Positions 26,332-51,780 of a DNA stretch of 64,000 bases are shown here, one piece after another; the stretch's first letter is position 1, and every line of letters starts with the position of its first letter. A model generated the notes under the pieces. The model was not told the origin of the DNA. It worked only from the letters and a program-made list of their open reading frames with translations, and ran no database searches. Origin of the DNA: Plectrocnemia conspersa (Eukaryota > Arthropoda > Insecta > Trichoptera > Polycentropodidae); the NCBI GenBank assembly GCA_009617715.1, contig VTFK01000063.1:1054001-1118000 (forward strand), in the 5' to 3' direction. The position numbers and the translations under genes are program-made.

Positions 26332-26400
26332 CACCGATCACTATATAAAGTTTCCTTCCGCAAAAGAAAGTCATACCTCAACCGACCGTTCCATGGTCAA
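26332..26400 (+). promoter_or_regulatory. Core promoter of array gene 1
   Basis: CACCGATCACTATATAAAG ends at 26350, with TATAAA starting at 26344. An initiator TCATAC has its A at 26373, 29 bp downstream, then ACCGACCGTTC in the 5' UTR. The same block precedes genes 2, 4, 5 and 6 with the same spacing. Further upstream GGTTATGTCAT (about 26313) matches GATTATGTCATTA before genes 5 and 6. Confidence 0.85.
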
Positions 26401-26442
26401 TATCACTTTAGAAAATATATCTAAATATACATACATACAAAA

Positions 26443-26871
26443 ATGTTCAGTAAATTGATTGTGAGTGATTGATGCTTTATTTATATTTTTATAATAAGTT
26501 TATTTATTCCTACGCATTTTATTTATAGTTTTTGGTAGTGGCGTTATTTATCGTTGCTGAGGCTGGACATTCATAGTGAGTTCATTTTTTAAGTTTATTA
26601 TAGTTCTGTCTATTATTTGAAATATATTTTTTTAAACAGTTCACATTACTTACCGCTTCGGATATACCATCACCGTGTGTACCATTACCCAGTGAAAATC
26701 CAACAAGTATCCAGTATTAAAACAGTGCCTGTGATCAAACATATACCTGTCATTAAAAAAGTGCCTGTGATCAAACACGTTTCCATAATCAAAGAAGTGC
26801 CCGTGGTCAAACACGTGCCTATTGTAAAAGTATGGCCAGTGATCCAAAAACAACATAGTTCTTCATGGTAG
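26443..26871 (+). CDS. Array gene 1: small secreted protein with KHVPVI repeats
   Basis: Spliced coding region: exon 1 26443-26460 (MFSKLI), exon 2 26529-26575, exon 3 26640-26871. It totals 297 nt, 98 residues, and stays in frame across both junctions. Exon 2 encodes FLVVALFIVAEAG, a signal-peptide core with likely cleavage after AEA, so the product should be secreted. The mature part starts SHYLPLRIYHHRVY, a motif shared with genes 2, 5 and 6, followed by about six hexads of the type VP(V/I)(I/V)K(H/K/E), then HSSSW at the C terminus. The stop is followed 13 nt later by a donor (26885); a non-coding exon 4 begins at 26952. Function is not recognised. The regular V-P-x-x-K hexads suggest an extended structural or cuticle-type peptide, which is inference. 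Confidence is high for the gene and low for its role. Confidence 0.85.
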
Positions 26872-26951
26872 TAAAAAGTCAATGGTAAGTTTTTAATTAT
26901 TGTATTTTATTTTTATATTATTTATAGTTTAAAATATTTATATTTTTACAG

Positions 26952-27060
26952 AATAACGAAGATGTGGCATCATCAAAGCATAATAATTAATTTATTTGCA
27001 TGTACATATGTGATCTAATAATATTATTTATATTTAATAAATACATTTTAATAATTTAAA
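26952..27060 (+). other. Gene 1 3' UTR exon with Pumilio-type site
   Basis: Follows acceptor TTTTTACAG (ending 26951). Carries TGTACATA at 27001-27008, which fits the Pumilio element UGUANAUA, and polyadenylation signal AATAAA at 27036-27041. Confidence 0.7.
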
Positions 27061-27064
27061 TGTT

Positions 27065-28920
27065 TTTAATTTATTCCAAATATATTGTATGAACTAATAT
27101 GAAAATAATAAAAAATGATTATGAAAGTAAAAGCAAATTTAATAATATATAATTATATGCAACATCTCTTTCTATTTTACATATTTGTGAAAAATTATAC
27201 TAAATCGCTTCGAATACATGTAAATTATATTGAATTAGTTTTATTTATTTAAATCATCATTATTATAGAATTTCTGCAATTAATTAAAAAATATAAAAGA
27301 TTTTTTATTTATTTATCTAAGATAAAATATTATTTAAAAGGTGGATCGCGGATTTTTTTATAGTCACTGAGTTATTTAAAAAAAAAAAAAAAATTACTAT
27401 TTTATTTATATTGATTAATTGTGTTCTAGCTAATCTTTGATTAATTTTTGACACCTTGATCTTATCCTAAATGATGAGATTTTTTCTGTATCACAATGTT
27501 TCATTTTTTTATTTGGTAATATCAATAATTTATCAATTATCTATGATATCCTCAATAAAAACATCGGATTAGCGAATAAGAATTGGGTACGACTTCAAAG
27601 ATCTGTGGAATTATTACTGATAATTTAAAGAAAATTGACTTGAAACAAAGACATGAAACGCAATTAAATCTATTAAAAAATCTAAAAAATTGATGCTCGA
27701 TAAACAGGTGCCAAATAGAATAAAGTCAGAAATCGTCCTTTGACAAAGCTACACTTTTTAGTACTATACTTATAATACTATAAAAAAACATGTTAACGGA
27801 TTTTAAAATTCAAGGTTGATCACTGGATATAAAACTAAAGAAACAGTATTGAATAATGGAATATTTTAAACGAAAAATTTTCATTGATATTACAATTGTT
27901 ATTTACTTATTAAACAATGCGAGAAGAAGATATGCGGGATTCTGCTTTTCTTTCATAAGCATTAGATACTATAAATAATTCTATATTAGACAATAAGTTA
28001 CAGTTGAGAAATTGAATTCAGAAGATTAGCAAGACAATATAACAAATAAGTACAGATCTTTAGGTAATAAACTCAAATCTTGAGATGACTTTCAACTCAA
28101 GTGAACCATTTAAAAAATAATATTTTGGCACATTTTTGTACATATTATATTAACATATGTATAAAAATGTGCCAATATAATAAATCTATGAAACGGTTTC
28201 TAAATATATTATTTCTTTTAAATGGCAAGTTTTAAGTTTAAACACAAACTAATATTAATTTTTATATTTAACTTTAAGAAAAATATTTTTAAAATATTTT
28301 AGCCCAAAATTTATAATATTACAATGCTTCATAATAAATATTTTGTGAAAAAATATTAAAAGTAAATTTTAAAAAACACTGTATATAAAAAACTTATGAA
28401 CAGTTTTTCATGCCAATATAAATTTTCAATATTCCAGAAAGCATTGATTTTTCAGTCTGTAGATTTCAATTTTACTGGACTTTGTCGAATGCCTATTTAA
28501 AAGCAAATAAATACTTAATTGTAAATGGTTTATGGTTCATATTGACATACCCTTTTGTAAAATAAAAATAAAAATTTAATTCATTTAACAAAAACTTACC
28601 ATCAGAGTTAATGTTCATGGTGTATATATATATATATATACTATTGTAATTAAAAATTATATATTTAGTTTGACTCATGTAATAAAATCTGAACAAATAA
28701 TTTGCGTTATTTAATTTAAAAATCATCTGAAACATAAATATTAATTAAGAAAAAAATATAGCAACAACAAAATATGTCGCTTAAAAAAGTTTTATCAATA
28801 ACACATCCGTAATAAAATAAAAAAAAGACTTAGCTTTAAACACAAATTTCTCAAGAATTTCTATGGGAATGTATCGGCATACCATTGGCGTCAAATAGTA
28901 TTCTAAGTAAACGAGGAAAA
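27065..28920. other. AT-rich stretch, no supported feature
   Basis: Between gene 1 and the inverted promoter copy. It includes a 15-bp poly-A run near 27380. No exon homologous to the array was found, although the minus strand downstream of the 29022 promoter runs into it. Confidence 0.45.
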
Positions 28921-28929
28921 ATATTATAA

Positions 28930-29150
28930 AGAAGAAGAACGTGTTTGTAAATTCATAAAATGATAGTGATAGTGGAACAGCCAGTCGTCGAATGAGATTA
29001 TTTTGCGGAAGAAAAGTTTATATACTGATCAGTGAAAAACTCTTAATGATTGCAATAAATAATTAATTTTTCTATTATTTTAATTTTCACAAAAAATGCA
29101 CATCGTTAGTAGTTTTTTTATGCATACATTATGCAAATTATATGATCTTT
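28930..29150 (-). promoter_or_regulatory. Inverted copy of the array promoter, coding part lost or unrecognised
   Basis: Read on the minus strand: GATCAGTATATAAAC, then CTTCCGCAAAATAA, then initiator TCATTC and ACTGGCTGTTCCACTATCAC. This matches the promoter and 5' UTR of genes 1 and 5. TATAAA starts at 29022 and the initiator A is at 28993, exactly 29 bp as in the intact genes. Upstream sequence on the same strand (ATAATTTGCATA, CTACTAACGA) also matches the region before genes 5 and 6. No MF-type exon 1 or AEAG exon follows, only short chance frames. Probably a promoter-bearing pseudogene in inverted orientation. Confidence 0.65.
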
Positions 29151-30329
29151 TTAATGGGCCAATTGATTATTTATATAAAATACATTTATTTAGGCATGCA
29201 AACATTATAAAAATATAAAATGTAAAAGTTTATTCTGTATTTTAATTACAAGAGTCGTCAATATGTATTTTTGCAAATATTGTTTTTTTTTATTTTAATA
29301 GAAACCAAATAAATAATTTTTTAGGTTATCAATACTGATTTTTTAAATCACATTAACTTGAATAAAGGATCTACAGTTATGGGAAAATATTTTAAAATCA
29401 ATATATAAATGTGTTATTTGTAAAGCATATTTTATAATTTTACACGTTGAAATTCATGAGATTAAAAAAGTAATTTTAAAATAAAGTTATGGAGTAACTA
29501 AAATATTTATTGAATTTTAGAACTTTATTTTTTATAAAACGTTGAAAAGCAATGTGTGTTTACTATTGTCTATTTTAAAACCACTGCCTTAGGAACTAGT
29601 CTTTACTTGGATGATAAGACTAAAGAATATATTTTTATTTTGAAATTACGTAATTAAATTAAGGGGGTCTTCGTTTTTATTGAAAATAAAATAAAATTCT
29701 TAATCGTTCTTTATAAACATTATTTTCACAAATTTTTAGTTTTCAAATTTTGTGAATGCTTTCTTCGATTATTTTTTTATAACCAGAAACCTTTTGTATG
29801 CAATTTTCATTCTATAAATTTGAAGTTGGTTTCTATTGTAGTTAGTTTTTTAGTAAAATCAAATATAAATTACTTGATCTTTTTCCAGGTTTTTCGTGTC
29901 ATGCGGATTTTTATTGACATAATTTTATTATATTACTGCAATAGGAAATGGGTACTGGAAACGATAAAATCATTTCGTGGAATCGAATGGACAATAGTTG
30001 ACTGAATGTTGTGTATATTCCAGGACATGCACATAAACTGTCTTTGGATTAAAATAATTATGGTAACTATATGGCGGAAAAGCAAAGAAAGTGTTTATCA
30101 TATTTTTTTTTATACAAAAATACTAGCCGATGAAAGTCAATTAGTAAAACACATGTATTAGCATACAAAATATTTATAAAAAAAACTTTATCGATTAACT
30201 AAAAACTTACATTTGATTTGCATGGTGCATAATATAACTACTAATGGTATTCATTTCCCGTGAAAATTATTAATATTGATGAATCGAAACTATTCTAAAA
30301 CATACTTTCCTATTTGATCTCTGAGATCT

Positions 30330-30400
30330 CTGAGTTACTATATAAAGTTTTCTTTTTGCAAAACTAACTCATATCACAACTGATCGTTCCAACGTCTCTA
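30330..30400 (+). promoter_or_regulatory. Core promoter of array gene 2
   Basis: ACTATATAAAG with TATAAA from 30341. The initiator in ACTCATATC has its A at 30371, 30 bp downstream, followed by ACTGATCGTTC, which matches the 5' UTR block of the other copies. Confidence 0.85.
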
Positions 30401-30434
30401 TCGTTTTATAATATATAAATTTAAAACATACAAA

Positions 30435-31054
30435 ATGTTTACAAAATTAATAGTGAGTTTTAGTTTTATTTATTATTTCAAGATCAAGTGTTATTTATTA
30501 TTTCAAGATCAATATTCTTAACAATTTTTTTTTAGTTTTCTATTGTTGCGCTATTTGTTGTTGCTGAGGCTGGTACTGGATGGAACGGAGGGTGAGTTAA
30601 GATTATATATTTGTCAAAGTTCATCTTTGTATTTAATTAATATTTTATTATAATTTTTTTTTTATAATAATGTAGACACCGTTACATAACGCAACGCATA
30701 TACCACCATACTGTGCATCCAAGACCAGTGATCCATGAGCAGCTACCTCACTTTCATGAACATCAACCTCACTTCGATGAACATCTAACTCACTTTAACG
30801 AACACCCATCACATTTCCATGAACACCAACATCACTTCGATGAGCATCAACCGCAATTCCATGTACATCAACCTCACATCCTTGAACATCAGCCACACAT
30901 CCATGAACATCAACCTCATTTCCTTGAACACCAGCCACACATTCATGAACACCAACCTCACTACTTTGAACCACGACCTCACTACATTGAACAACGACCT
31001 CACTACATTGAACACCGACCTCACTTCAATGAACACCATCATTCTTCGTGGTAG
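30435..31054 (+). CDS. Array gene 2: secreted His-rich heptad-repeat protein
   Basis: Exon 1 30435-30452 (MFTKLI), exon 2 30536-30591, exon 3 30676-31054. It totals 453 nt, 150 residues, in frame throughout. The signal peptide core is FSIVALFVVAEAG. The mature part opens with HRYITQRIYHHTVH, then about fourteen heptads of the form H-(F/I/Y)-x-E-H-Q-P from about residue 48 to 143, encoded by 21-bp DNA repeats, and ends HHHSSW. Histidine makes up a large share of the repeat, so divalent-metal binding or pH-dependent assembly in the extracellular space is plausible but not shown. A donor GTAAGT (31068) lies 13 nt past the stop; exon 4 starts at 31138. Reverse-strand frames over the repeat are shadows. 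Confidence 0.85.
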
Positions 31055-31137
31055 TAAAAATCTAACGGTAAGTTGCTGCTAATTAATATGTTTAAATTAT
31101 ATATTATTAAATTAATCATTTTTATTTATATTTTTAG

Positions 31138-31240
31138 CTGCTATAAAATAATTTACACAACATAATCATAATAAATTATTCTATATAACATGTACATATG
31201 TGATTTAAAAAATATTATTTATATTAAATAAATTAATGTT
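31138..31240 (+). other. Gene 2 3' UTR exon with Pumilio-type site
   Basis: Acceptor ATTTTTAG ends at 31137. TGTACATA lies at 31191-31198 and AATAAA at 31227-31232, the same layout as gene 1. Confidence 0.7.
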
Positions 31241-31880
31241 TACCATATTATTTGTCTTTTTTTATTCTTATTTATTTAATAAACATAAACATAAAATCAT
31301 ATATATTGAACTAATAAATCTATAATAATAATAATTAAAATAAATAAAGGTATTGTTTTAATATAAAATATAACTAATAGAAATAAATAAAGCCTAAGCC
31401 TAGATTATAAATAAAAATAAGCAAACCAGAATATAAAAAAATATTTATAAATGCAATTTGATTTTTTTTATAAAGTGATTTTTAAAATATCCTTAAATGT
31501 CTTAGACTTACTCGTTTTACAATAATTTTGTAAAAATATTTTGAACAACATCTTTATTAAAGAAAAATTTATAATTGACAAAATTAATACCTGAATTAAT
31601 AATTCTATATAGAAATTTATAAATCTATGTGGTTCTTGCAAAAAAAAATTACGTGCAAGCCCACCAAAAAATATATTAAAATATATTTATTCTTCATAGT
31701 AAATAATGTATAATACTAACGGAGTTCATATCTTATAAAAATGATTAATGTTTAAAAATAATTACTATGTATTATCTCCGAGAGTCAAACAGTTTAATTT
31801 TAACCAAATAAACTCACACCACTATTGACCGTTCTACCGTCGCTATCGTCATATAAAATATAATAACATTTAAAGCAAAA

Positions 31881-32163
31881 ATGTTCAGAAAATTACTAGT
31901 GAGTTTCAATTAAAATAATATATTTTAATGATTAGTTACTTTATTAATACGTATGTATATTTTATAGTATATTTTTAGTATAATTATCATTGTGTTATTT
32001 GTCATTGCTGAGGCTCACAATGCAACGGGAGGACAGTGAGTTAACATGTTATTTGTGTCAAATATTTTAAGAGAGTAATGATTATTTTTAAATGTTCTAT
32101 TTTTTAAATAGAGTACATAACATATCGGTACGCATATTCCATGAGCACGTGAACCCAATATGA
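31881..32163 (+). pseudogene. Array gene 3: truncated paralog, probably dying
   Basis: Exon 1 31881-31898 (MFRKLL), exon 2 31968-32035, exon 3 32112-32163. With these borders the 138 nt (45 residues) stay in frame, giving a signal core IIIIVLFVIAEA and then ISVRIFHEHV, a remnant of the RIYHHR motif, before a TGA at 32161. The acceptor in the position used by siblings (ending 31978) would shift the frame; the open frame requires the upstream acceptor ending at 31967. The repeat core, Ser-Trp end and post-stop donor are missing. The TATA box has decayed (CTATGTATTA near 31765), while the UTR block TTGACCGTTC survives. The 3' region keeps TGTACATA (32300-32307) and AATAAA (32339-32344). It may still yield a 45-residue secreted peptide if transcribed, but pseudogene is more likely. 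Confidence 0.7.
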
Positions 32164-32349
32164 GACCATTCTCCATTGAAGAAAATAATATGGTTACTTT
32201 TTACTTTAATATTTTTTGCTTATTTTTTAGACTTAAATGAATAAGAGATACATTTAAAATATATTATTCAATATATTAGTAGCTTTTTAATTGAATGCAT
32301 GTACATATGTATGAAACGCAAAAATATTAGGGGTATGAAATAAATGAGT

Positions 32350-34380
32350 ACTAACTGTTAATCAGCTATTTTATTTGTTCCCCAATTCATTATTAAGCAT
32401 ATAAAAAATAAAGTATATATAATTTATGTTTTGGATGTGCTTTTGCTATTCCAGTAGTTATTAAGAAGTTTGATAAAGATAACATTTATTTTTGGTAGGC
32501 TGATTTAGTCAACATGTAATGTTCATTTGCCAATCTACCAAAAAAATAAGATCTAGAAAGTTTGTATCTAGGAATGACATTTCATGATTTTTTTTATATC
32601 ATATAAAACATTCTTACAATATATATTTTTATTAAAAATCATTATTTATTAGAAAAATTTGTTTAAAATAATTAAAAAAATTAAAAATATAATAAATGCA
32701 ATGCGAAATATTTCTATTAAAATGTACTTAAAAATATCACATTCTAAGAGACTGTAAAACTACAGTACAAAGCAAATAATTCTTAATTTTACATATCGAA
32801 GCGTTTTTAAAAATAGCTGTGTATGTCAGAGCTATATTAAAATTATAAATGGGAGCAACAAATAAATCGTTATAAATGATAACTGTCAGTTAAAAGTCGA
32901 AGGGGTTATCTATGTAATTTTTTTTAATGTTTAAAAAAATGGTAAACATACATATGCTATCTATCGAAAAAAATCATAATATTTGTTGACTGACGAACAA
33001 GCGTTTTTACGAAACTAAGGTCTTTATTAATCTGAAAAATCAGTTTTATAGTTTCCATTGATTTTTATACAGAAAGATAATAATCTCGTTTACTAGTTGT
33101 GTATTTTGATAAAAGTTTTTGGCTATTACTTGATCTGCATTAAAGAATTACAGGTACTAAATGCATTATATTAAATTATATTTAGTCGGTTATATCTTAT
33201 CTTTTTTTTCATTAAAAAGTCTGACTTTTGTCCTATTATTTATAGTATTTTTTAACACAAAATAATACAGAATTCTTGATGATATAATGCAAATATTATA
33301 AAAATATGCAATCATATAAACACTATTTTTAAAACACAATATTAAAAATCGTACTTTAGAACTAAACCAAAATATACTTTATATTTTTGGATGTGAATAT
33401 GTTGCCATGATTAAAGAAAAAATAATTAATTCAGGTAAGATAGGGTGCAATAAGCGTGTCATTATGGTGGAGAAAGATGCAGCTAAACTGTGTTATGTTA
33501 AAATTCAGGGAGTTAATTATTATGAGGATGCTTCTAATATTACTGAATGAAGGATATACACTTCATCAATAAAAAAGTAGATTTTAAATAAAAAAAAAAT
33601 AAATTGTATATATATAATAGAATTAAAATATTATATGTTACATAAAATATTTACACACTTAGTCTACCAAATTTTTTCCAGACGTATTTTTTTTAATTTA
33701 CGAATCAAAATGAATAAAAAATTTTTTTCTTTATTTAATGTATGCAATACTATTTTATTTTCATATATTGTTTACAACTACCCCTAATTAAATTGAAAAT
33801 ATTCGATTTTTCGACTTTTACGATAACATTTAGAAGCAATTAATCACGCAACTCGATTTTGTGAACTAAATTTATTATTAGTTAATTTGATTTTTGTACA
33901 CTATTACTTTTTTTTAAAGTAACTATTAATAACCATTTTATTAAATAATACAAAAATCGCGTGTATTTTATATATACTTTTATTTTGCATTGGGTTAGAT
34001 CAGATGTTGCTGTATATTATACATGTTTTATCTTTTATTTTATTTTTAAGTACGAGTAATATTATCTTATAAGGACTATAAAACTAAAATTATATATATT
34101 ACATAAAACTGTCTCAAATAGCAACTGTTAGGCAAACTATTTAATAATACCAAAATATCCTTGTTAGAGAAAAAAAACTGGTTCCCAAAATTTTATTTAT
34201 ATATAGATCTAATTAAAATGTTGAATATACCTTGACATTTTCCAATACATTTTATACAATCATAATGTTTGCATTTTATTGCGAAAACTGTAGAATTTTA
34301 TAAAATTTATAGGTATTAAAAAAGACTAAAATCTACATAATGAATATCTTTACTAAATAGAAAAAATCTAATAGCGACAT
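32350..34380. other. AT-rich spacer between genes 3 and 4
   Basis: Apart from the small open frame at 33407-33550, nothing is supported. From about 34205 the sequence (TCTAATTAAAATG, TTGAATATACCTTGACATTTT) resembles the upstream blocks of genes 5 and 6, so the duplicated unit probably begins here. Confidence 0.4.
33407..33550 (+). CDS. Unrecognised 47-codon open frame in AT-rich DNA
   Basis: ATG to TGA with 47 residues. It includes GCNKRVIMVEKDAAKLCYVK and then GVNYYEDASNITE. It is GC-richer than its surroundings and has a protein-like composition, but no splice sites, domain or signal peptide. It may be a leftover of a mobile-element gene. Low confidence. Confidence 0.25.
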   Translation: MIKEKIINSGKIGCNKRVIMVEKDAAKLCYVKIQGVNYYEDASNITE

Positions 34381-34399: not shown

Positions 34400-34463
34400 C
34401 CTCACCGATCACTATATATAGTATCCTGCAAAACATGTCTTCATACTACAACTGACCGTTTTA
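34400..34463 (+). promoter_or_regulatory. Core promoter of array gene 4, separated from its gene
   Basis: CTCACCGATCACTATATATAG, then TCATACTAC (A at 34443) and ACTGACCGTT, matching the sibling promoters. A transposon follows directly at 34464. The TATA box is therefore about 2.47 kb from the ATG instead of 94-102 bp; removing the element and one TTA would restore about 101 bp. Confidence 0.8.
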
Positions 34464-34608
34464 TAGTCCAGTCAAATAAGGCGAAATAAAGGCTAAACCT
34501 CGGAATGAAAGATACCAAGCTGAAATTTTGCACAGACCTTCGTTTTGATGTTCTAAGGACAGGGTGAAAAGTCTCATAAAATATCGTGTCTGCTAATCAA
34601 GATATCAA

Positions 34609-34628
34609 AGGTCAAAGGTCAAAGGTCA
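34609..34628 (+). promoter_or_regulatory. Triple AGGTCA direct repeat (DR1) in the transposon TIR
   Basis: AGGTCA occurs at 34609-34614, 34616-34621 and 34623-34628 with one base between each, giving two overlapping DR1 elements, the preferred target of HNF4 and RXR/USP-type nuclear receptors. The right TIR has two half-sites in mirrored orientation. Confidence 0.7.
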
Positions 34629-34934
34629 CAAAATTTGATTTTTTGCAAATATCTCGCGTTTTATGCGTTGCACGTCATTAGATGCTTCACAAAACTTGTA
34701 AAGCATAAAATTATCTACAAGTTTAGTTATAATATTTGTTTTGTATCATTAACCGTTTTTGAGATATAGCGCGAAGAGTGGGAGGCGTACATCCGTTTAT
34801 AGAATCCAGCGAGTATTTCTACCTACTTAACTTGGTATAAGCTTTGAAAAAGTAAACAATCGTGAAAAAAGTGGTCTCGGCAAGTCGTTTGAACCATAAT
34901 TTTATTACTTTCTTCATTGTATTATTAGGAATTA

Positions 34935-36590
34935 AAAATGAAATATTGCTCGATAAGAAATTTGTGCGAAAAAATTGAAAGAGTTGAGAGATGTCCTTAC
35001 GGATTATGTACCAGATGATAAGAAGATCATTTCCAAATTAAGAGAAAAATATTTAACTGATATTATAGTTATAACGAAGATTGGATCATTCCCTATTTTT
35101 TCTTTTCGCGATGCTCAAGCTTAAGTTTTATCCATAGCTTGGTATGAAAATAAAAAAGGCACTTCGGAAGAAGAACACTTGCGCGTAATGGAAGCTGCTG
35201 CGGCGATTATTAGAGAAGATATTCGATCTTCTGTTGTTGAGACCAAGTCTTATCCGCCCCCGAGTAAAATATTAATGAAGAAATTCCGAAAACTTTATTA
35301 CATTTTCTGCAAGAAGTTATTATAAAGAACAGAAAAGGAAAGACGGGGCATTTTAAAACGAAATACACAGCTATAAGACTTCCATACGAAAACGGCCCTT
35401 TTCTTCGCAGTTATTAATAGGCCTATCTGTATTTCTTCATAGATAAAATACAGATAGGCCAAACATCCAAAAATACTTTTGGATGTTTTGTCAAGTTTAG
35501 GTTTTTTCGCTTCATATAGTGATACTGTAAAATGTTAAATTTCAGCTGTTTATCACCCACAGCCTCGTAATCAACCATCATAGTCAAGTGCCTTAGTACA
35601 GTATGCAGCAGATAATGCAGAAAAATATTTATACTCTTGATGGCTATAATACTGTTCATATAATGGGAATGATAAAAATAATAACTCCAAAATCTGAAGT
35701 TATATCTGATGACCGCATAAAGAAATTTACAACATAACCAAGTGCAAAAGAGTTAGCAGCACTATCACATATACCCCTTCTAGTGTATGAAAATCATGTC
35801 GTACCCGGATTGAGCAAGAGATTCAAGTTCAAAATTTTAATGATGTAGAAGAACTAACCGAACAAATATTTAATGTAGTTGATTAGTTGTGGAAGTACGG
35901 AAAGTGGAAAAAGATCTCACCGTTGCCAGGGTGGAATGGATTTATTGAACAACTTACAAAAAACAATGAGAACTTTGTAACTTCTCGGATTCTGTTTCTT
36001 ACTTTTATTCATCATCCTGTGAGTAATATGGACACAATTTACACTACATTACAGTGTGCTATAAACACTGCCAAGAAACATGAACAAAGAACATGCTTAA
36101 TAACTTTTGATCAGCCGTTGTACATAAAAGCACGTGAAATCGTAGCAGCTTCAGATGCTAGCTCAGACTTGTCCAGAGTAGTTGTGAAACTAGGAGGCTT
36201 TCATATGCTTATGTCTTTTATTGGATGCATAGGGTATATAATGAATGGAAGCGGAATCAAGGAAGCTCTCAGTACAATTTATGCATCGAATTCTGTCGAC
36301 AAAATGTTGGATGGTCCCGCTTTTGCAAGAAGTATCAGAGGCCATACGTATTACTTTTGGCATTATCGATGATGATTTTTGAAGATATGGAGATTGAAAG
36401 TTATAATGCTTTAGATGGGTTCATTCAGCAGATAACAATTTGCGATGTTTTCTACGAAACTGTGGAAGAATGTACAGGTAACTCTGGCTCCGTAGTTTAC
36501 ATAGCGTTATCCTATAAACGGATGCGCGCTTCCCACTCCCCCCGCGCTATATCTCGAAAACCATTAACCATACGAAGAAATAAATTATAA
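34935..36590 (+). pseudogene. Decayed protein gene of the transposon
   Basis: Pieces of one protein read in order: KELRDVLTDYVPDDKKIIS and YLTDIIVITKIG (about 34977-35100), EEEHLRVMEAAAAIIREDIR (about 35170-35235) with SYPPPSK, and the longest intact part 35887-36372, containing TCLITFDQPLYIKAREIV, VVVKLGGFHMLMSFIGCIGY and GSGIKEALSTIYASNSVD. I have seen this ITFDQPLY / KLGGFHxLMSF / IYASN pattern in repeated uncharacterised invertebrate proteins but cannot name the domain. Stops and frameshifts (for example near 35124, 35320 and 36370) show it is inactive. Confidence 0.65.
35420..35488. repeat. Two adjacent perfect hairpins inside the transposon
   Basis: Stem 1: GGCCTATCTGTATTT (35420-35434) and its exact complement (35446-35460), with an 11-nt loop. 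Stem 2 directly follows: AAACATCCAAAA (35461-35472) and its exact complement (35477-35488), with a 4-nt loop. They interrupt the transposon reading frame. Confidence 0.8.
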
Positions 36591-36888
36591 CAAACTTGTA
36601 GAAAATTTTATTTTCTATAAGTTTTGTTAAACATTTAATGACATGCGACGCAAAAGAGGCGAGATATTAAAAAAAAAACGATTTTTATGACCTTTGACCT
36701 TTAATATCTTGATTAGCAGACACGATATCTTTTGAGACTTTTCACCATATATTTAGAACGCCAAAACAAAGGTCTGTGCAAAATTTCAGCTTGTTATCTT
36801 TCATTCCAAGGTTAAACCCTTATTTGACTGGACTATTAGTGTTACTATCGTTTTATAACACGCTGCTTTATAGGTGATAGCATACAAA

Positions 36889-37436
36889 ATGCTTGGTAAA
36901 ATAATAGTGAGTTTGCGTCTAATTAACTATTTTTAAGATAAATAGATTTTTATTTATTCTTATTTTTTTAGTTTTTTATTGTTGCGTTGTTTGTCGTTGC
37001 TGAGGGTCATTCCTTAGGGTTACCGTAAGTCAACAATTTTTTTTTTAATATCTAACATTATTTAAAAAAAAATCTTTTTAGTACCATACCCCAAGATGTA
37101 TACAACGATGATCATCATCACTGGCATCCGACAAATTTGGGGCCTGTGGTAAACACATGGCCTGCTGGAAGAATATATCCTGAGCCAGGATGGCCTGTGT
37201 CAAAAGTGCCTTACATTCCTGATTATCCTCGAGTATTGACAGGAGGATGGCCTGTCGTGCCCAACAATAATGATTGGCCTATAATAAGAACAATACCAAC
37301 GTCAGCAGGATGGCCTGATGTAACACATCACCCCACTTACAATGGATGGCCTGAAGTGAAAGTAAATGAATGGCCTGGAATAGATTTGAATCCAATTCAC
37401 AGCCATCCTGATGTTCCAAGAATTGCGATAAACTAA
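36889..37436 (+). CDS. Array gene 4: secreted WP-repeat protein, 5' UTR split by transposon
   Basis: Exon 1 36889-36906 (MLGKII), exon 2 36972-37024, exon 3 37082-37436. It totals 426 nt, 141 residues, in frame. Signal core FFIVALFVVAEG. The mature part differs from the siblings: instead of the RIYHHR block it has a DDHHHWH segment, then repeated (G)WP modules (for example GGWPVVPNNN, AGWPDV, NGWPEV, EWPG) rich in Pro, Trp and Asn. It ends RIAIN without the Ser-Trp tail. A donor GTGAGT (37439) follows the stop by 2 nt, as in the siblings; the acceptor of exon 4 is not clear. The coding part is intact despite the transposon in the 5' UTR, so it is either still transcribed (from the original TATA or from the element) or only recently separated. 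Confidence 0.8.
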
Positions 37437-41997: not shown

Positions 41998-44087
41998 CAG
42001 TGTTTCCCACGGTGGGGCGTACGCCCCACCGGTGGGGCACCACGCCTCAGAGGTGGGGCACCACGCTTCAGAGATGGGACACCACGCTTCAGAGATGATA
42101 CACGTCGGAAATTATCAAATATTCCACATATAAATATAATTTGCTCGTTCACGACTAAATATACCTACGTGCGTAGGATTTCTTAAAATTTGATTTATAC
42201 CTGCTGGGCATGACGAATGCCTACTTTTTGTCTTCTGTGTGAAAAATCCTTTACCAATGAAACAATGAAACGAGGTCGTCTTGAAGCACATTTTAAGGCG
42301 AAACATAGTACTCATATTAATTCAGATATTATTTTCTTTCAAAATCTTAAAAGAAAAATTTGGAAAACAAACAACATTAACAAATCTATTTTGTGCACAA
42401 ACTGCAAGTATTGATCGTAGTCTTGAGGCTAGTTACCAAATTTCATTGCTCATCGCTAAATGTGGAAAAAAAAACCATACTATAGGAGAGGATCTAATCA
42501 AGCCATCAATATCAGCATTTTTTTAAAACAGTTCTACAACAAGATGACAAACTCGTGAAGGCTATGCCCTCCGCAACACTACTGTTTTCAGAAGAATATA
42601 CGAATTGAGTGAAAACGTTGAAATCCAACTTGTTGAAAAGCTGAAAACAAGAAAATTTTCACTACAAACGGATGAATCAACTTTGAGAGACAGTGAAGCC
42701 GTGTTGCTAGCTACGTAAGATATATTGATAAAAGAGAATTTGCAGAAGAAATGTTTTTCTGCAAATCATTAGAAAGCACCACTACCTCCAAAGATATATT
42801 TAATAAGCTAAAAGAATATTTAGATGTTAAAAATATACCAATAAAAAATATAATATCTTGTGCTGCAAATGGTGCCCCCAATATGATGGAAAAGAAAAAT
42901 GGCTGCTTAAAATTAATGAAAGACGAGAATCCAGATATGACTGTGGTGTTTTGTGTTATTCACAGGGAAAACTTGGTGGCTAAATACATTTCACCTGTTC
43001 TAAATGAGGTATTAAATTCCGTTATAAAGTGTATCAATATGATTAAAACTAGTGCTAAATCTGATCTTATTTATTTTGTGAAGAACAAAATGCGAAACAC
43101 GTAAGACTGTTACTTCACACTGAAGTAAGATTCAAAAGTAAATTCCTTTAAAAAAGATTTATGGAATTATTCGATACCATTTGTGATTTTTTTAAGCAAC
43201 CGATCTGATATGAAGTTTTTTTGATGACGGTCGACGGTAAAAAGCATTTGTAAGCTATTTAACTGATATATTTGAAAAAATTAAATATTTTAAATAGCCA
43301 ATTTCAAGGATCGGAGAAAACACTTGTCGATGCAAAAGCAAAGATATTTGCATTTACCACTTTTATCGAATTATCTAAAAAAAATATTTTTAATAACAAT
43401 TTTGAAAAATTTTACTGGCTCCAAAAATGTGAAGTGACTGATAATGCTAAACGTGTTATTTTGACCATCTGCAAACTTTATCAACTGATTTTAAAGAACG
43501 ATTTGCTGATTTAAAAGGGATACATTTTCCAGCTTGGTTGACACAACCAATGCTGGTAGATATTTTAAATGAAAATTTGTATGAAGAAGAACTTTCGGAA
43601 ATACAAAATGATAATTCGATTACAAATTTATTCAATATAAAAGGAATAATGGCATGGATGTGCGAAGAAACTAACACAAAATATCCTAATATTACTTTTG
43701 CATGCTAGAAATTTATTATTACCCCTTTCATCATCTTATTTAGTGGAATGTCGTTTTAGCGCCATAAGCGATTTACTCATAAAAAAAAAAAGAAATCGAT
43801 TGAATATTACAAATAGAGGGGACTTAAGACAGAAATTAACCAAGTTAGATCCAGACATAAAATTTCTTTGTAGCAAGCGTAAGTGAATTTAATAATTTAA
43901 AAATGGATTAGGCATTACCATTTTATTCTATTTTACTTACATTTTTAATTTGTATTTTGTAATTATTTCAATTATAATATACGTTTTGAAAATTTAACTA
44001 CTGTTTTATTAAAAAAATGCCGGTGGGGCATATGACTTTTGAAAAGACTACGGTGGGGCATGGCATAAAGAAGGCTGGGAAACACTG
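41998..44087 (+). mobile_element. hAT element, Buster-like, 2090 bp
   Basis: Terminal inverted repeats begin CAGTGTTTCCCA and end TGGGAAACACTG. The 8-bp target duplication ATATACAC is exact (41990-41997 and 44088-44095) and fits the nnnTAnnn pattern of Buster-type hATs. Subterminal features are a perfect 20-bp palindrome (42011-42030, arm GGTGGGGCGT) and three 21-bp direct repeats starting at 42031, 42052 and 42073. The perfect target duplication suggests a fairly recent insertion, yet the transposase is broken. It lies about 160 bp upstream of the gene 5 TATA box, inside the duplicated upstream block. Confidence 0.9.
42217..43886 (+). pseudogene. Broken hAT transposase (ZBED5-like)
   Basis: Pieces in order: a BED-type zinc finger (CLLCEKSFTNETMKRGRLEA then HFKAKH, from 42217); FSLQTDEST (about 42658), holding the first catalytic Asp of the hAT RNase-H fold; ISCAANGAPNMM and VVFCVIHRENLVAKY (42751-43104); a middle part with several shifts; and a C-terminal part (43698-43886) with YLVECRFSAISDLLIKKKR, the hAT dimerisation region. 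At least five frame interruptions separate the pieces, so no active transposase is made. Confidence 0.85.
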
Positions 44088-44234
44088 ATATACACTGTTA
44101 AATAATTTGCATAGTGCATAATATATCTACTAATAACATGCAAAATTCGTGTTAATAATTAATATTGATGAATTAATTCCACTCTGAAAAAAATATATTG
44201 GAATTTCTAAGAATCGATTATGTCATTACGCTTT

Positions 44235-44300
44235 TCCTTTCCGATTACTATATAAAGTTTCCTTCCGCAAAATAAATTCATATTGCGACTGACCGTTCAA
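44235..44300 (+). promoter_or_regulatory. Core promoter of array gene 5
   Basis: CCGATTACTATATAAAG with TATAAA from 44251. Initiator TTCATATT has its A at 44280, 29 bp downstream, then GACTGACCGTTC. GATTATGTCATTA (about 44217) precedes it, as before gene 6. Confidence 0.85.
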
Positions 44301-44352
44301 CTATAACTATCGTTTTATTAAATATAAAATTTAATATACCGAAAACATAAAA

Positions 44353-44919
44353 ATGTTACAAAAAGTAATTGTAAGTAAAAATTTTTTTTATTTATTTTAT
44401 ATTAAACATAAGTTTAGTTTTACTTATCAATTAAATATTTTTTAGTTTTCTATTGTTGCGTTATTTGTCGTCGCTGAGGCTGGCGGTTTATGGGATGGAC
44501 CGTAAGTATTTTGGATAGTAGTAATATCATTAAAATTGATTGACATGACATAATATTTTTTATGTATTTATAGCTCACATTACATACAACGCATATATCA
44601 TCATCGTGTGCACGAAGCGCCCTTGATTAAGCATGTACCCATCATTAAAGAAGTGCCTGTGATTAAATATGTGCCTATTGTGAGAGAATATCCAGTTATT
44701 CATCAGCATCAACATCACGTCCATGAACATTTACCTCACATTCAGGAGCACCAACCTCACTTTATTGAACACGAACCACACATCCATGAGCACGAACCTC
44801 ATTTCAACGAGTTCCAGCCTCACTTCGTTAAACATCAACCTCTTATCCATGAACACCAACCTCACTTCCATGAACCCCAACTTAACTTCCAAGGTCACCA
44901 TCATTCTCCATGGTGGTAA
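44353..44919 (+). CDS. Array gene 5: secreted protein with both VP hexads and His heptads
   Basis: Exon 1 44353-44370 (MLQKVI), exon 2 44446-44501, exon 3 44574-44919. It totals 420 nt, 139 residues, in frame. Signal core FSIVALFVVAEAG, then SHYIQRIYHHRVH. The core starts with hexads like gene 1 (KHVPIIKEVPVIKYVPIV, about residues 40-60) and continues with about eight H-x-x-E-H-Q-P heptads like gene 2 (about residues 66-125), ending HHHSPWW. It is therefore a mosaic of genes 1 and 2, either the ancestral type or a recombinant. The donor (44927) lies 7 nt after the stop; exon 4 starts at 44989, with TGTACATA at 45093-45100 and AATAAA at 45123-45128. A secreted, possibly metal-binding product is inferred. 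Confidence 0.85.
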
Positions 44920-45258: not shown

Positions 45259-45756
45259 TAGTCCATCCAAGATGTTAGCGCTCATCATCGTTGTGTTGGA
45301 AATAAGGGTGTGTGTACGCATGCATGCATACATATACAGTTTTCCGCGAATTTGTTTATACCAATAAGAGAACGTTACCAATACTGAATCAGGGCTGTTT
45401 TAAGAGTAGGGTGACCATACTTTTGAAATTGAATTAAAAATTATAATGTGTTATATTTTAAATTGTAATTTTGTAATCAATGAAACAATTCCTGTAATAT
45501 TCTATTGGTATTTTTAAAAATATTAAATTAAACAGATATTCAACCTGGAGAGTAATTCCAAAACCACTATCATGTTTTTGAGTTAAATATGTATATTAAT
45601 AAACAAAATAAGTAAGAAAATGATATTTTACACTTTCCTCAACAAATTTAATTAAAAAAAGTAAAAAATTAATTGCACTTGTAATTTCACATGGTCACCA
45701 TATTATTTTTTCTCACAAATACTGTGACGATGAGCGTTCATATCTTAGATGGACTG
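45259..45756. mobile_element. Tc1/mariner-like MITE, 498 bp
   Basis: Ends are inverted: TAGTCCATCCAAGAT on the left and CAGTCCATCTAAGAT (reverse complement) on the right. The similarity continues through CGCTCATC(A/G)TC. TA dinucleotides flank both sides (45257-45258 and 45757-45758). No coding capacity. A second inner inverted pair (GGTGACCATA near 45411, GGTCACCATA mirrored near 45694) is present. Confidence 0.65.
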
Positions 45757-46735
45757 TATGTATGTTTGATTTTTCATATTTGTACTTACTGTGAAAGACT
45801 AACTTTAAAACAATTTTAAAAATTAGATTGACTAATCACATTAAAATAGCAGTAGTAGCTACCATGTTTACAAAAAAATATATTTTGTAAAATTCCCCAC
45901 CATGTTTTATCCACATACTTTTGCAGTAGGTTGTATTTTTTAATTAATATCTACCTAAAACTTCGTCAGAATTTTAGAAATTTTATTTTGTAACAATATT
46001 AAGGAATGATGAATATCGATGTTTACACCTTTCACTTTTATCGTATTTTTTTCCTATTATTTACAATAATAATCGGTTCTAAAATGTAAATCGTTATACA
46101 TACATATTATTTATTAAAATTACCGGGCGGCTATTAATAAAAAAAATTGATGTTACTTAAGAAAATAACACACATATGCTAATGAGTGTATATGTATAAT
46201 TTACGATAATCAGTCAAATATTTGACACACGAAAAATGGTTTGACACATGAAAAAAAGTTTGACACATGTAAAATAAAGCAGTGCTTTTCAAAATTATGT
46301 TCAAGAAACTGAAAAAAATTGTTTAAATTAAATCTTTGCTGCACTATGTAATGACATAGTGTAACAATTAGTCTAAAATACTTGACAGATTTTATTGCGT
46401 GCTGATATAGTCTATATTTTAGGATTTTTTAATTAGTTGACAAATTTCTGTACAAAAAAACAAAAAATTGGTCGAAACTATTTAGAAATGAAAATTTGAT
46501 GGCCAAGATGAATATTTTTGGAAAACTCAATAAATAATTAAAAAAAAATTATATGTATCTAATTTTGCGATTTTAAACCATGTAAGATATTTTATTATAA
46601 AATAGTTTAAACTAAAAATCATTTAGAATAGTTTTAACTAAAATTCACGCACATGCCACTTGGTTCGTATTTAATAATTTATTACTTATCGTCAGAAAAT
46701 AGCACCAAAAAAGCAATGTATCAACTTTAAATTAA

Positions 46736-47039
46736 CCCTTTATGTGCTAGGTGCAGATAAATTCGAATCACTGTGTACGGCTCTTAAGTGCAAAATTTGG
46801 ATTTATTTCACGATCTTATTGATTTATTTCACGATCAATAAAAAAATCATAAAAAATCACGAAATTAGGCAATTATACAGTAAAAAATAAAATTAAAGAT
46901 TTAATCCTAAAGGTACATAAATATAGATGCAGCATATAATAAATATAAACATATAGACAATAGTAATTAAATTTATTTTTAAATGTATAATTGACTAATT
47001 ACGTGACTTTTTATGAAAATTGATTCAGCACTTAAAGGG
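46736..47039. mobile_element. Possible piggyBac-type MITE
   Basis: TTAA (46732-46735) is followed by CCCTTTATGTGCT, and the right end at 47027-47039 reads AGCACTTAAAGGG, its near-exact inverse. The right flank is CTTG rather than TTAA, so the target site is only half supported. Confidence 0.3.
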
Positions 47040-47222
47040 CTTGTTTTTGAGAAAAAAGTAGTGTTATTCTGTGATTTTTTTTTTTTTAAAAAAGGGCGTA
47101 ACAAACAATTTAACTGAAATTTTCATTAAAAATCGAATGCAGTGATGTTGTATAAAGCTTTTGGTGAAAATCTTCTAACGGAGAGTTAATAAATAGTACA
47201 AAGGTTTTTAAGAGACTTGTGA

Positions 47223-47560
47223 AAATGTCAAGTATGTCAAAAGAAAATAGAGATTTAGATTTCTGGGTTTACATGCTAGACTCTAACATGTCAAACCGGA
47301 AAATTCGCAATTAGAAAGATCGCTAAAGAAGTTCACGTAAAGCAATTTAAACTGATATTTTTAGCTTAAAACGAGTAGCAATAACATTTGTTTAGAACCT
47401 GTTATATGTTAAAAAAACAGTACCATAAAAAAATACTGAGGAATTGTTGTGGCTGATGACACAGAGTTATTTTAAAAGTCATTTTTATGAAAGCAATACA
47501 ATATAAGCTTCTTTAAAAGCTAAGAGAATAAAAAAAGCACTTTAAGTTTGATCGAATGAC
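47223..47560 (+). pseudogene. Possible Tc1/mariner-type transposase remnant
   Basis: A frame beginning MSSMSKENRDLDFWVYMLDS continues, after a shift, with AIRKIAKEVHVK, which resembles the helix-turn-helix of Tc1/mariner transposases. Later pieces include EELLWLMTQSYFKSHF. No catalytic motif or ends were identified. Confidence 0.3.
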
Positions 47561-48129
47561 AATGTAAGCCTTGTTTTTTTCTTTAAATAAAACTTCTACA
47601 TAAGTAAGTTATACAAAGATACTAAGTACAACCTTATGGTTTTAATCCGTTTGCTTATTAAACTTTTTGGCAAATTAATCTACTTTTTTTTACAACGATA
47701 ACATACTGGCTTACGTTTTTTAAAATAAATTGATGAATTTTTGTCCAAAAATCGTGATATCGCAGCTACAGTATTTATCAGTTATACCTTAAGTTTTCGT
47801 AGATAAAGAGGACCTCATTTTGGGCCCATGGAGTCACTTTGTGAGCTTAAGACTAATAGACCAAATATTTACCTCCACAAATTTATGAATTGCTAGCATA
47901 AGTTTATTTTATTTGTAGGGACTATTTTCAGGATAAAATATAAAAATATGAAACAATATTTTTTGATTAAAAATATAATTTTATAACATTTATTTTCAAA
48001 CTTTGTACATATTTTGATATAATAAAGGTAAATAAGCTATGCTTTTTCGTGATTTATGTCATTATTTTTGCATTAAATTATCATAAAAACGTTTTATATA
48101 TTTGTTTAGAAACACTGAAAATAATAAAG

Positions 48130-48210
48130 AAATTGCAACGTGCATAATATATTTAGACGGAAAACAACTTTTGCCTAACCGATCATTATGTATTAATTTT
48201 TTTTCACCTT
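48130..48210 (+). promoter_or_regulatory. Decayed array promoter relic
   Basis: GTGCATAATATATTTAGACGG, then CCTAACCGATCATTATGTATT, resembles the upstream and TATA blocks of the array (CCTCACCGATCACTATATAAA), with the TATA broken as in gene 3. No exons follow. Probably a dead copy between genes 5 and 6. Confidence 0.4.
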
Positions 48211-48974
48211 TTTTGTATTTTATTTTTAGTTATATATGTACTTTTTAATTTCTATGTTTTAATAAGAAGCCCTTGAAAGTGTTTAGTATATAATCAATAA
48301 ATTTATGTAACAAGAAAACATATTTTAGAGACATAATAATGTGTGTTTAAGAACATTTTGAAGGCAATAATTTGTTTATAACTATAAATTATTATTTAAT
48401 TCCTTAAATTCATTTTAATTAACTGTTGTAAAAATAAAAAAAATCTAAATACTATATTATTTGCTGTGTCGGTAAGTTTTACTTTTTATTAAATTTTAAT
48501 CAGGTATAATGTCTTAATAAATAATTGTTATTAACTTATTAACACGACATATTGCTATCATACTTTTTTACCATAATATTTATCAAATTATGTCAGTTAT
48601 TACGTTTTTAAATTATACGGTATATAATAATATTAGATAATATTAAATCTAATATTTTTTCAATTTTGATAAAAAAAACTGATTATAAAAAATATAAAAT
48701 ATTGACGTATAGTGTTAATTAAGCGATGAATAAATTTTATATTTTCATAATGGTAGCATTATATCATATAAACACGAGATTCTTTTATAAATAATTTATG
48801 GGCACACTAAAGAAATTGGCATATAATTTGCATAGTTAATAAAATAAACCTTCTAACGACGCAATCTTTGTGGAGGTATTATATCAGCATTATTATCTTT
48901 AATTTATGAATCAATACCATTCTGAATTATTCAATTTATTTTTGCAATCTTTAAGAGTTGATTATGTCATTAAA

Positions 48975-49060
48975 TTGTTTCTCAACCATCACTATATAAA
49001 GTAATCTTCTGAAAACTAAACTCATACTACCACTGACCGTTCAACTGTCACTATCTTTAA
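48975..49060 (+). promoter_or_regulatory. Core promoter of array gene 6
   Basis: CAACCATCACTATATAAAG with TATAAA from 48995. Initiator CTCATACT has its A at 49024, 29 bp downstream, then ACTGACCGTTCAACTGTCAC. GATTATGTCATTA lies just upstream (about 48960). Confidence 0.85.
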
Positions 49061-49089
49061 AAAATACTTAAATATAAAAAACAATAAAA

Positions 49090-49454
49090 ATGTTCAAAAA
49101 AATAATTGTATGTCAATATCTTTTTAATAATTTTGGAAGTACGCTGAATTTTAATATTATTTTGTAATTTTTCAGATTTCTATTGTCGCGTTATTTGTCG
49201 TTGCTGAGGCTGGTACTTTATATGGTGGACAGTGAGTTAATATTTTATATGTTTTATTTTATAAAAATATAATGTGAATGTTATATTTTTTATTACTATA
49301 TAGTTCACATTACATACCGCAACGCATATATCACCATCGTATACAACCAGTGATAATACAATCCCATGGATTAAATGTGTGGCCTTCCGCAAATGCATGG
49401 CATGCATTACCAGGATATCATGCGCCTTACTCTTATTCCTCTCCATGGTGGTAA
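49090..49454 (+). CDS. Array gene 6: short secreted protein without tandem repeats
   Basis: Exon 1 49090-49107 (MFKKII), exon 2 49176-49231, exon 3 49304-49454. It totals 225 nt, 74 residues, in frame. Signal core ISIVALFVVAEAG. The mature part has SHYIPQRIYHHRI, then a short non-repetitive segment with VWPSANAWHALPGYHAPYS and the terminal SSPWW. It shows the conserved frame of the family (signal, RIYHHR, Ser-Trp end) without the expanded repeat, so it may be close to the ancestral form. Donor GTAAGT (49465) lies 10 nt after the stop; exon 4 starts near 49529, with AATAAA at 49646-49651. The Pumilio-type site has changed to TGTACGTG here. The W-P dipeptide recalls gene 4. Confidence 0.85.
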
Positions 49455-49659
49455 AGAATCAACAGTAAGTGTTCAATCAAATGATAAATATTTAAGTTTA
49501 ATAATATATTAATTAAATATTTAATTAGACAGAAAAGGTGATTCAAAAACTTTTTTTATAACATAATAACTAAACTCAAGAAAAAAATATGTTTTACAAT
49601 ATTGACGAATAAATTATATGCATGTACGTGATTTAATATTGTTAAAATAAAAAATATCA

Positions 49660-51780
49660 TAAACTATAATATTTCAATTTTTTAATTAAAAACTCTCGTA
49701 AAGTCCACAACTACCATTTTAAAATCCATCAGCGTACATCAGTAAATATAAAGCAAGGTGATTTAAAAAAATTATTAAAATTAAATCTTCTTGAATATTT
49801 TAAAGATTTTAATGACGCACTGAGCGTAAGATGCATTTCTATGCCGATCGGTACAGACCGTACGTGACAATAAACGGATTCAAATCACAATTGGATACTT
49901 TCTACAAATATTTTTTGAGCTAAAGTAGCTCATTATTTAATATTTAAGTGAATACTATTTGTATTATTCTGTATTTTAAAAGCACATAATTATTTAAAGG
50001 AAAAAATCATAAATTATATTCGTTCCTCACGGCTCATGTGTGAAAAGTAATTTATAATTTATAATCACTTTATAATTGTATCTTCCACCATAAATCATTT
50101 TTTTAATACAAATCTTGGTAATGACGCCCACTAATCGTGGCGCCTATTGTGTTGCCCCAATTTAAGCACTCTAATGCCACTTACATATATATTGAAGGTT
50201 ATAGCATATACATAAAAATAACAACAACCGCATAAAAGCTAACAATTCATAAGTGATACAAAGATAGAGATTTTAAATTACACCAATGACAATAAATTAA
50301 TTAACAACGAATCAATATTTAAATTATGCAATTTAATAAACATTTATTAAAATTGATAATTATGCAAATTATTTTAATTATTAGTAAGAAATATGAAATC
50401 TAATAGAAAGTTTTTAAAAGTGAGATCTTCGCCTAAAAATTTTGCATTCATCATTAGACTATACCAAAAATGTATATTCTCCATTAAGCGAATCACATAA
50501 TAAAATACCTTTATTATTCAAAAGTAGTATTACTATATTAGTATTACTAAACATATGCAAATTTGAAGGAAATCGAAAAATACGCTGCTAAAATTTATTA
50601 AAGTTTTTATTATATTATAGTAGTAGAAAGTAGAAATTTTAACAATATATGTAAATATATCGCATAACATGAATTTTAATTTGTTTATCCTGTTTTATTA
50701 TTGGCTACGTAATTTATGCATATATTAACAATGCGAATTTTCGCGGTAAATAAGTTGTATATTATGTATCAATCGACTTGTATTCATTTATATTTTATTT
50801 ATAAGTATACCCTAAATTAATTTATCACCTTTTATACGTCAATTTATATATTATTTGTATTGTTAATATACTAAAAAATGTGAATAAAGTAAAAATATAT
50901 ATTATACATATAAACGTATGTTAAGTGAATCATATGTATCAGTTCCCATCAATTTATCTTAATGGCGGACAAAACCGGTTTCACCAGAGTGTAAATGCTT
51001 AAGCAACAAATTTGTAAATCTTCCCACAATCTCACAAGCGGAAGAAGAAACGGAAATTCACAGAAAGTGTCGAATACAATTTAGTATAAACAATATCGTA
51101 ATGTATAGCAGTATTTATTTTAAGGATACTTATATTGCTATAAAAAAAATGTAAACATTTAGGTTGCTTTCATTTTTAATTAATATTTGTATTTTAAAAT
51201 ACAATACTTAAATCAAATAAATAAAAAATATATTAAAATAATAACCTCATTCCCGCATTAAGTATGCTAGTCAGGATCATTGTCTCAACCACATATATAT
51301 GTATGTGTGTATATGTAATATGCCTTGACAATTAACCGCGTTCAAATGCACAGTTTTGGTGAATCCCTAATCCTTAGCATATTATAATAATAAGCTACAA
51401 CTCTAAATGTTAGTTTGTGTTATATTTAGAGCTGTTGATACAAAAGCGTCATTTTAATAACATAGCTTCGATATTATATAAATTTAATACCAGTAGGAGA
51501 TAGAAAAATATTATGTTTTTGTGAAAAATAATAATCCTTGTGACTTAAAAAAATATGAACGATATAAATAGTAGTTTTTTTTTGTAACGTATGTGTATTG
51601 TTTTGCGATTGTCAGCTTTTTTTAAATCATATTGATATTAAGCATATGTATTATGATAAAACAGAGATAAAATGATATTTTGTTTTATTTTTTCGTTCTT
51701 ACAATTATATTATTTTAAAATTGATTTAATCTGGAAAATGTTCATATAAGATCTATGCGATTAAAAGGTCGTAATTTTAA
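49660..51780. other. AT-rich stretch downstream of the array, no supported feature
   Basis: Only short chance frames. No further array promoter or exon was found to the right of gene 6. Confidence 0.45.

Follow-up and report, generated by a model that had tools for sequence, protein, structure and literature searches.

Constant frame and divergent cores in a tandem array of predicted secreted-protein genes of Plectrocnemia conspersa, a candidate family of cuticle-type proteins

A 64,000-nucleotide stretch of the genome of the trichopteran insect Plectrocnemia conspersa (contig VTFK01000063.1, positions 1,054,001 to 1,118,000; hereafter the window) carries six plus-strand gene units, g1 to g6, at 26.3–49.7 kb. 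We read these units as a tandem array of one family that combines a constrained shared part with different low-complexity cores and that would encode secreted, cuticle-type structural proteins, a reading to which we give a probability of about 0.5. The reading is favoured because a signal-splitting intron, a TATA box and tandem, Cys-free genes rich in His, Pro, Val and Lys make up the usual anatomy of cuticle genes. On the best reading of the sequence, the array would be an unnamed family of a known sort, that of arrayed low-complexity cuticle-like proteins. Since ordinary insect cuticle-type genes share its architecture, the array is less exotic than an earlier, sequence-only reading of the window had suggested. 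What does appear unusual is the presence, within one frame, of a basic Val-Pro-Lys core in g1, an acidic His core in g2 and both in g5.

A common frame around unlike cores

Each unit consists of three coding exons joined at GT-AG junctions, with two introns of 57–84 nt in the coding region. The first coding exon is 18 nt long and in phase 0 in all six gene models. Exon 2 measures 47, 56, 68, 53, 56 and 56 nt from g1 to g6, which is 2 modulo 3 in every case, and encodes the greater part of the signal-type stretch; the predicted proteins are 98, 150, 45, 141, 139 and 74 amino acids long. These models bear out the earlier description of six plus-strand genes with a common 18-nt exon, a signal-peptide exon and common phases. 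The same description had counted spliced lengths divisible by three as evidence, which they are not, since reading any frame through to a stop codon yields such a length. An exon-2 motif, GTTGCTGAGGCTGG, is matched six times at up to three mismatches (0.68 expected; six matches are reached in none of 100 shuffles), and in tblastn searches the array proteins retrieve each other's exons. By eye, a signal-like stretch that ends in AEA before a G is present in g1, g2, g5 and g6, closely similar forms of it occur in g3 and g4, and the proposal that the products are extracellular fits this arrangement.

Four genes (g1, g2, g5 and g6) are complete, with a TATA box, a signal-type start, the motif RIYHH(R/T) and a Ser-Trp end. 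According to its gene model, g1 comprises the coding part of exon 1 (26443..26460), a signal-peptide exon (26529..26575) and an exon 3 (26640..26871) that contains RIYHHR, a core of VPVIKx hexads and an SSSW end. The corresponding exons of g2 lie at 30435..30452, 30536..30591 and 30676..31054, the third encoding RIYHHT, heptads of the form H-F/I-x-E-H-Q-P and an SSW end. Both modules occur in g5 (44353..44370, 44446..44501 and 44574..44919), in which RIYHHR is followed by hexads, then by His heptads, and finally by an SPWW end. The shortest of the four, g6 (49090..49107, 49176..49231 and 49304..49454), has RIYHHR, a short core with one WP dipeptide and an SPWW end. The conserved RIYHHR-like motif and Ser-Trp end of the sequence-only reading, which allowed for losses in g3 and g4, hold for these four genes; g4 has neither and g3 is broken.

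The hexads of g1 and g5 and the heptads of g2 and g5 each surpass all of 2000 shuffles in periodicity, and the best period of the hexads is 12, i.e. two units. The supposed 'WP module' of g4 was rejected as a repeat: it consists of seven irregularly spaced WP dipeptides, and 292 of 2000 shuffles are equally periodic. The core of g6 is non-periodic by the same measure (239 of 2000 shuffles). The cores lack Cys and abound in His, Pro, Val and Lys; His accounts for 29% of the mature chain in g2 and 23% in g5. Counting K, R, D and E only, the net charge is +11 for g1, −10 for g2 and −6 for g5.

Upstream, a 26-nt TATA block (ACTATATAAAG...) is the same, without a single difference, in g1 (26340..26365, plus strand) and g5 (44247..44272, plus strand), and the core ACTATATAAAG can be aligned across g1, g2, g5 and g6; the TATA boxes of g2 and g6 lie at 30337..30347 and 48991..49001, also on the plus strand. 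A promoter shared by all six genes had been proposed. Four of the six have an intact TATA box at the expected position, but it is gone in g3 and separated from the ATG in g4. Similarly, an intron after the stop codon had been ascribed to every gene: a splice donor lies 2–13 nt past the stop codon in five of six (donors only were examined), but none of the donor patterns of those five is found at g3.

Constraint on the shared frame

Selection was estimated among g1, g2, g5 and g6 from the 31–32 codons that make up the signal block and the RIYHHR block, where the proportion of differences, summed over the six pairs, is 0.40 at synonymous sites (pS) and 0.14 at nonsynonymous sites (pN); these pairwise estimates, all between paralogs, share genes and so are not independent. 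The ratio pN/pS is 0.35 over 32 codons (codon bootstrap 95% interval 0.17–0.66), and a fraction of 0.0008 of 5000 bootstraps reaches a ratio of 1 or above. Exon 2 is most constrained (pS 0.37, pN 0.08), and values of 0.40 and 0.17 were obtained for the RIYHHR block and of 0.52 and 0.20 for exon 1. For g1, g2 and g6 the true frame gives a pS of 0.45 and a pN of 0.16, against 0.24/0.22 and 0.18/0.25 in the two shifted frames, a comparison from which g5 was left out for its one-codon gap and 7 and 5 stop-holding codon pairs were dropped from the shifted frames. The constraint signal thus belongs to the coding frame. The first 17 codons of g4 are constrained like those of the other genes (pS 0.33–0.51, pN 0.13–0.16).

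The repeat units, too, differ more at synonymous sites, with pS and pN of 0.54 and 0.26 for hexads (9 of 11 units) and of 0.65 and 0.22 for heptads (22 of 23 units). These figures use 6 of 7 hexads of g1, 3 of 4 hexads of g5, 8 of 9 heptads of g5 and 14 of 14 heptads of g2; the omitted units are the last, divergent ones of their series. A fixed frame with swapped cores, as first proposed, fits these data, in that purifying selection acts on the frame among the paralogs and the cores are unlike one another. The label 'rapidly evolving' suits the cores but not the shared frame. In a tree of whole units only the node that joins g4 and g6 is supported (94, against 32 and 50 for the remaining nodes), so the tree gives no order of module gain and loss.

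The same measurements bear on two alternatives. One is that the array is largely a decaying cluster of duplicates without present function, as might be suspected from the broken g3, the interrupted promoter of g4 and one inverted relic. Against this, promoters, splice sites and open frames are all retained in g1, g2, g5 and g6, where pN/pS is well under 1, and we regard wholesale decay as improbable. The other, and the main rival to cuticle-type proteins, is a secreted material of a different kind, such as a silk, egg-covering, ovipositor or venom-gland protein. The genes of gland secretions, too, come in tandem and pair a conserved signal peptide with a divergent mature part, and the conserved exon 2 and unlike cores of g1, g2, g5 and g6 conform to that pattern. 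Repeat cores are commoner in structural proteins. Tandem venom-peptide genes have been described from an ant (PMC10800049). Composition argues the other way: none of the six mature proteins contains Cys, which leaves them without the conserved cysteine pattern of disulfide-rich secreted peptides, and a single dibasic pair (KK) occurs across all six mature chains, unlike peptides that are disulfide-bonded or proteolytically released. A non-cuticle secretion is a serious but clearly less probable explanation.

The scarcity of dibasic sites also bears on neuropeptide-like or hormone precursors, which would be cleaved into many short repeats. The signal-type start, repetitive sequence and small size of the products would suit such precursors, but, that one KK pair apart, no dibasic sites separate the repeats, and this makes the proposal highly improbable. 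Neuropeptide precursors and disulfide-rich peptides were both set aside on composition.

Cuticle-type proteins and their closest relatives

The cuticle-type reading draws on several published systems. Most CPR genes are reported to be interrupted by a single intron a few codons into the signal peptide, and in Drosophila about 75% of them to lie in tandem arrays (PMC2793513); the 18-nt first coding exon of all six predicted models agrees with the CPR norm given there. A protein of beetle elytra, TcCP30, is described as of low complexity, with 21% His, and as cross-linked via laccase2 (PMC4440208), and an account of silkworm scale proteins reports them to be His-rich and refers to laccase2 films (PMC8062583). 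Both sources describe cross-linking of His-rich cuticle proteins by laccase2 and N-acylcatechols. In a further report, low-complexity proteins were recovered only in the unextracted pellet, CPLCX2 contained 18.5% His and soluble cuticle proteins contained less (PMC5395146). The composition of g2 and g5 appears compatible with a His cross-linked cuticle protein. The genome also holds an AAP-type cuticle-like frame with AHYAPA repeats (L031 1389-2069, contig C429), which starts at an apparent acceptor within its signal peptide.

If the products are of this type, the TATA promoters would direct expression in an epidermis-like secretory tissue, and cleavage after AEA would remove the signal peptide. 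Once mature, the chains, largely unfolded, would pack into an extracellular matrix in which laccase-oxidised catechols would cross-link them via His and Lys, and the Trp/aromatic ends may contribute extra contacts. The array itself would have been reshaped by duplication, by loss and gain of cores, by transposon insertion and by decay.

Several points weigh against a cuticle assignment. Signal-splitting introns occur beyond cuticle genes. Neither g6 (12.5% His) nor g4 (7.3%) is notably His-rich. No chitin-binding or known cuticle domain was found, as Pfam gave nothing above cut-off for any of the six proteins, and no homologue from annotated cuticle was recovered, with g6 as the sole protein-database query. 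The first exon of the AAP-type gene did not turn up in the 1.39 kb searched. AlphaFold, given exon 3 of g5 alone as a single sequence, returned no confident fold (predicted local distance difference score, pLDDT, 62; predicted template-modelling score, pTM, 0.14), and the model includes one short low-confidence helix at residues 2–12, so that an unfolded state can only be presumed. Finally, in one test of PMC5395146 solubility did not vary significantly with His content, and four of six His clusters recovered as free peptides came from CPLCX2.

Searches for relatives leave the family as unrecognised as the sequence-only reading had found it. Beyond the null result in Pfam for all six proteins, nothing exceeded the cut-off in NCBIfam (g1, g4 and g5) or in the PDB (g5 only), and a protein-database query with g6 returned no candidate with three words in common. 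The domain chitin_bind_4 (PF00379), by which CPR membership is judged, was not found in any of the six proteins with Pfam at E up to 1. Two matches under cut-off, LED_rpt to g1 (E 0.1, the only Pfam match at E up to 1) and SecM_small to g5 (E 0.005), were dismissed as low-complexity noise. The string RIYHHR is present in none of the papers searched.

Within the 393 Mb genome, g6 retrieves only itself (one match, E up to 0.001), as does g4 (two matches, E up to 10). The seven matches to g5 at E up to 10 include six in the array (g1, g2 and g5); the seventh, on contig C429 at E 6.8, falls in a 66-amino-acid frame distinct from the AAP-type frame there. An exact exon-2 14-mer occurs at four places, namely g1, g2, g6 and one unrelated GC-rich stretch. 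Such searches are weak on short exons (the g5 query missed g3, g4 and g6), and dispersed members may have escaped them. In the 100 kb on each side, neither tblastn (matches outside the array at E of at least 0.3) nor the exon-2 pattern revealed a further member. Promoter queries against the flanks gave many short or low-identity matches, with a best E of 2e-7 besides transposon copies.

The Vajk cuticular proteins have valine/proline-type repeats, and the array resembles them in this respect. The CPLCP proteins are another close system, to which g1 shows a likeness in composition that g2 and g5 lack. The Pro-rich g1 has six of its eight Pro in PV pairs; a high Pro content, for the most part in PV and PY pairs, is the CPLCP mark according to PMC7497268. 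In contrast, one PV pair was counted for 15 Pro in g2 and two for 15 in g5; g3 has none for its single Pro, g4 three PV and one PY for 22, and g6 one PV and one PY for six. CPLCP proteins are also credited with three conserved motifs (PMC8062583), and the likeness drawn here is one of composition alone. Apidermins, a secreted hymenopteran cuticle family, have a high Ala content and AAPA/V tetrapeptides as their defining features (PMC7497268), whereas mature Ala in the array is 0–7.1% and AAP is absent from all six proteins.

The hisnavicins of Hymenoptera, those of Nasonia among them, are repetitive and clustered, and for 10 paralogs rich in His, orthology to cuticle proteins of ants and bees is reported (PMC10542623). 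Compared by description, they differ in having a 62-residue motif in up to 19 copies per protein, against 6- and 7-residue units in the short proteins of the array. Their annotation raises the further possibility of His-rich antimicrobial or barrier peptides akin to hisnavicins or apidermin 2. Clustered His-rich hymenopteran genes have been annotated as antimicrobial peptides (PMC10542623), and apidermin 2, a cuticular protein of the honeybee, acts against both bacteria and fungi, so that both roles can coexist (PMC9604307). That antimicrobial role is nonetheless said in PMC10542623 itself to need confirming data, the orthologues of its His-rich paralogs are cuticle proteins, and the 62-residue motif is unlike the units found here. 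The net acidity of g2 and g5 also speaks against an antimicrobial function, which we consider unlikely.

For the cuticle-type reading, the nearest parallels in chemistry are TcCP30 and BmorCPR152, with 21% and 45% His and laccase2-dependent cross-linking (PMC4440208, PMC8062583). TcCP30, a low-complexity protein, is encoded by a single exon and is Glu-, Arg- and Gly-rich (PMC4440208), and BmorCPR152 is classed by its name as a CPR protein (PMC8062583). The accounts of these two proteins in PMC4440208 and PMC8062583 that we draw on make no mention of core exchange between genes.

One further proposal, which we hold to be speculative and rather unlikely, concerns a two-component material. Between the basic Val-Pro-Lys chains of g1 and the acidic His-Glu chains of g2 there would be mutual attraction; the two would condense depending on pH and then be locked by catechol cross-links, and g5, with both modules, would act as a bridge. 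If so, exchange of core modules within one secretion-and-end frame would tune the material. More generally, were the cuticle-type reading true, the array would represent an unnamed cuticle-like family, perhaps confined to one insect lineage, in which routing and anchoring parts are fixed and the material-forming core is swapped, lost or rebuilt between neighbours. Genes g1, g2 and g5, with module A, module B and A+B respectively, would then amount to a natural experiment on what each core does in a protein material.

Damaged copies, mobile elements and surroundings

Judged from its sequence, g3 is a decaying copy. It comprises the coding part of exon 1 (31881..31898), an exon 2 (31968..32035) whose frame is preserved only via an upstream acceptor, chosen in the model so that the frame stays open, and a truncated exon 3 (32112..32163). 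A premature TGA stands directly ahead of a relic of the C-terminal motif, and the TATA box is lost. Against g6, g3 shows synonymous and nonsynonymous divergences (dS and dN) of 0.12 and 0.17 over 14 codons, matching a relaxed copy; the ratios for the other three g3 pairs are about 0.35 to 0.70 over this short stretch.

Gene g4 retains its signal-type start and an open frame (exons at 36889..36906, 36972..37024 and 37082..37436), with a Trp-Pro-rich core in exon 3. Its TATA box (ACTATATATAG, 34411..34421, plus strand) and initiator block are separated from the ATG at 36889 by a 2.4-kb terminal inverted repeat (TIR) transposon at 34464..36835, to which no strand is assigned. The inner repeats of this element (34494/36815) were located by script; its outer ends and a 3-bp TTA duplication were recognised by eye. 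An interrupted frame runs from 35887 to 36372 within the element. The end sequence of the transposon is met again in the flank, with identities of 93% and 82%, at +117.7 to +117.9 kb and at +122.5 to +122.7 kb (flank positions here and below are relative to the window). Upstream of g5, sequence inspection identified a hAT-like element (41998..44087, likewise without strand) with an 8-bp duplication, ATATACAC; its frame 42697-43104 is transposase-like by eye.

A minus-strand segment at 28956..29040 shares 75% identity with the g1 promoter over 85 nt and, read from 29040 to 28956, has ACG where the start codon belongs. No coding exons were detected alongside it. It is probably what remains of a lost, inverted seventh copy.

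In the 3′ untranslated regions (UTRs), the motif ATGTACATATGTGAT occurs in g1 (27000..27014, plus strand), exactly also in g2 (31190), and in near form in g5 (45092) and g3 (32299). At up to three mismatches it was found 10 times against 6.1 expected, and 7 of 100 shuffles reach 10, which is within chance; UGUANAUA is slightly over-represented in the window (44 against 32.4 expected; 1 of 100 shuffles). An aligned ATGTACATATGT-like motif that contains TGTACATA is present in the 3′UTRs of g1, g2, g3 and g5 (27001, 31191, 32300 and 45093) and is changed in g4 and g6. We take TGTACATA to be a Pumilio-type element, as a lead only.

The 264 kb around the array have a GC content of 28.9%. ARAGORN detected no tRNA in the window, and no Rfam family reached its gathering score there. 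Arg/Pro-rich open stretches at 22443-22987 resemble, by eye, frames at −75.7 kb in the flank. Other flanking frames appear by eye to be Nischarin-like and FHIP-like (−99.7 kb and −82.5 kb) or, for one of 624 amino acids at −47.2 kb, leucine-rich-repeat-like. Elsewhere in the assembly, the mitochondrial contig C786 (18,207 bp, 12% GC) has rearranged tRNAs. ND4 and ND5 were not seen there as frames of at least 80 amino acids, possibly owing to assembly indels. In COX1 of this contig TGA codes for an amino acid, and the segment between trnS2 and ND1 holds trnI and trnM.

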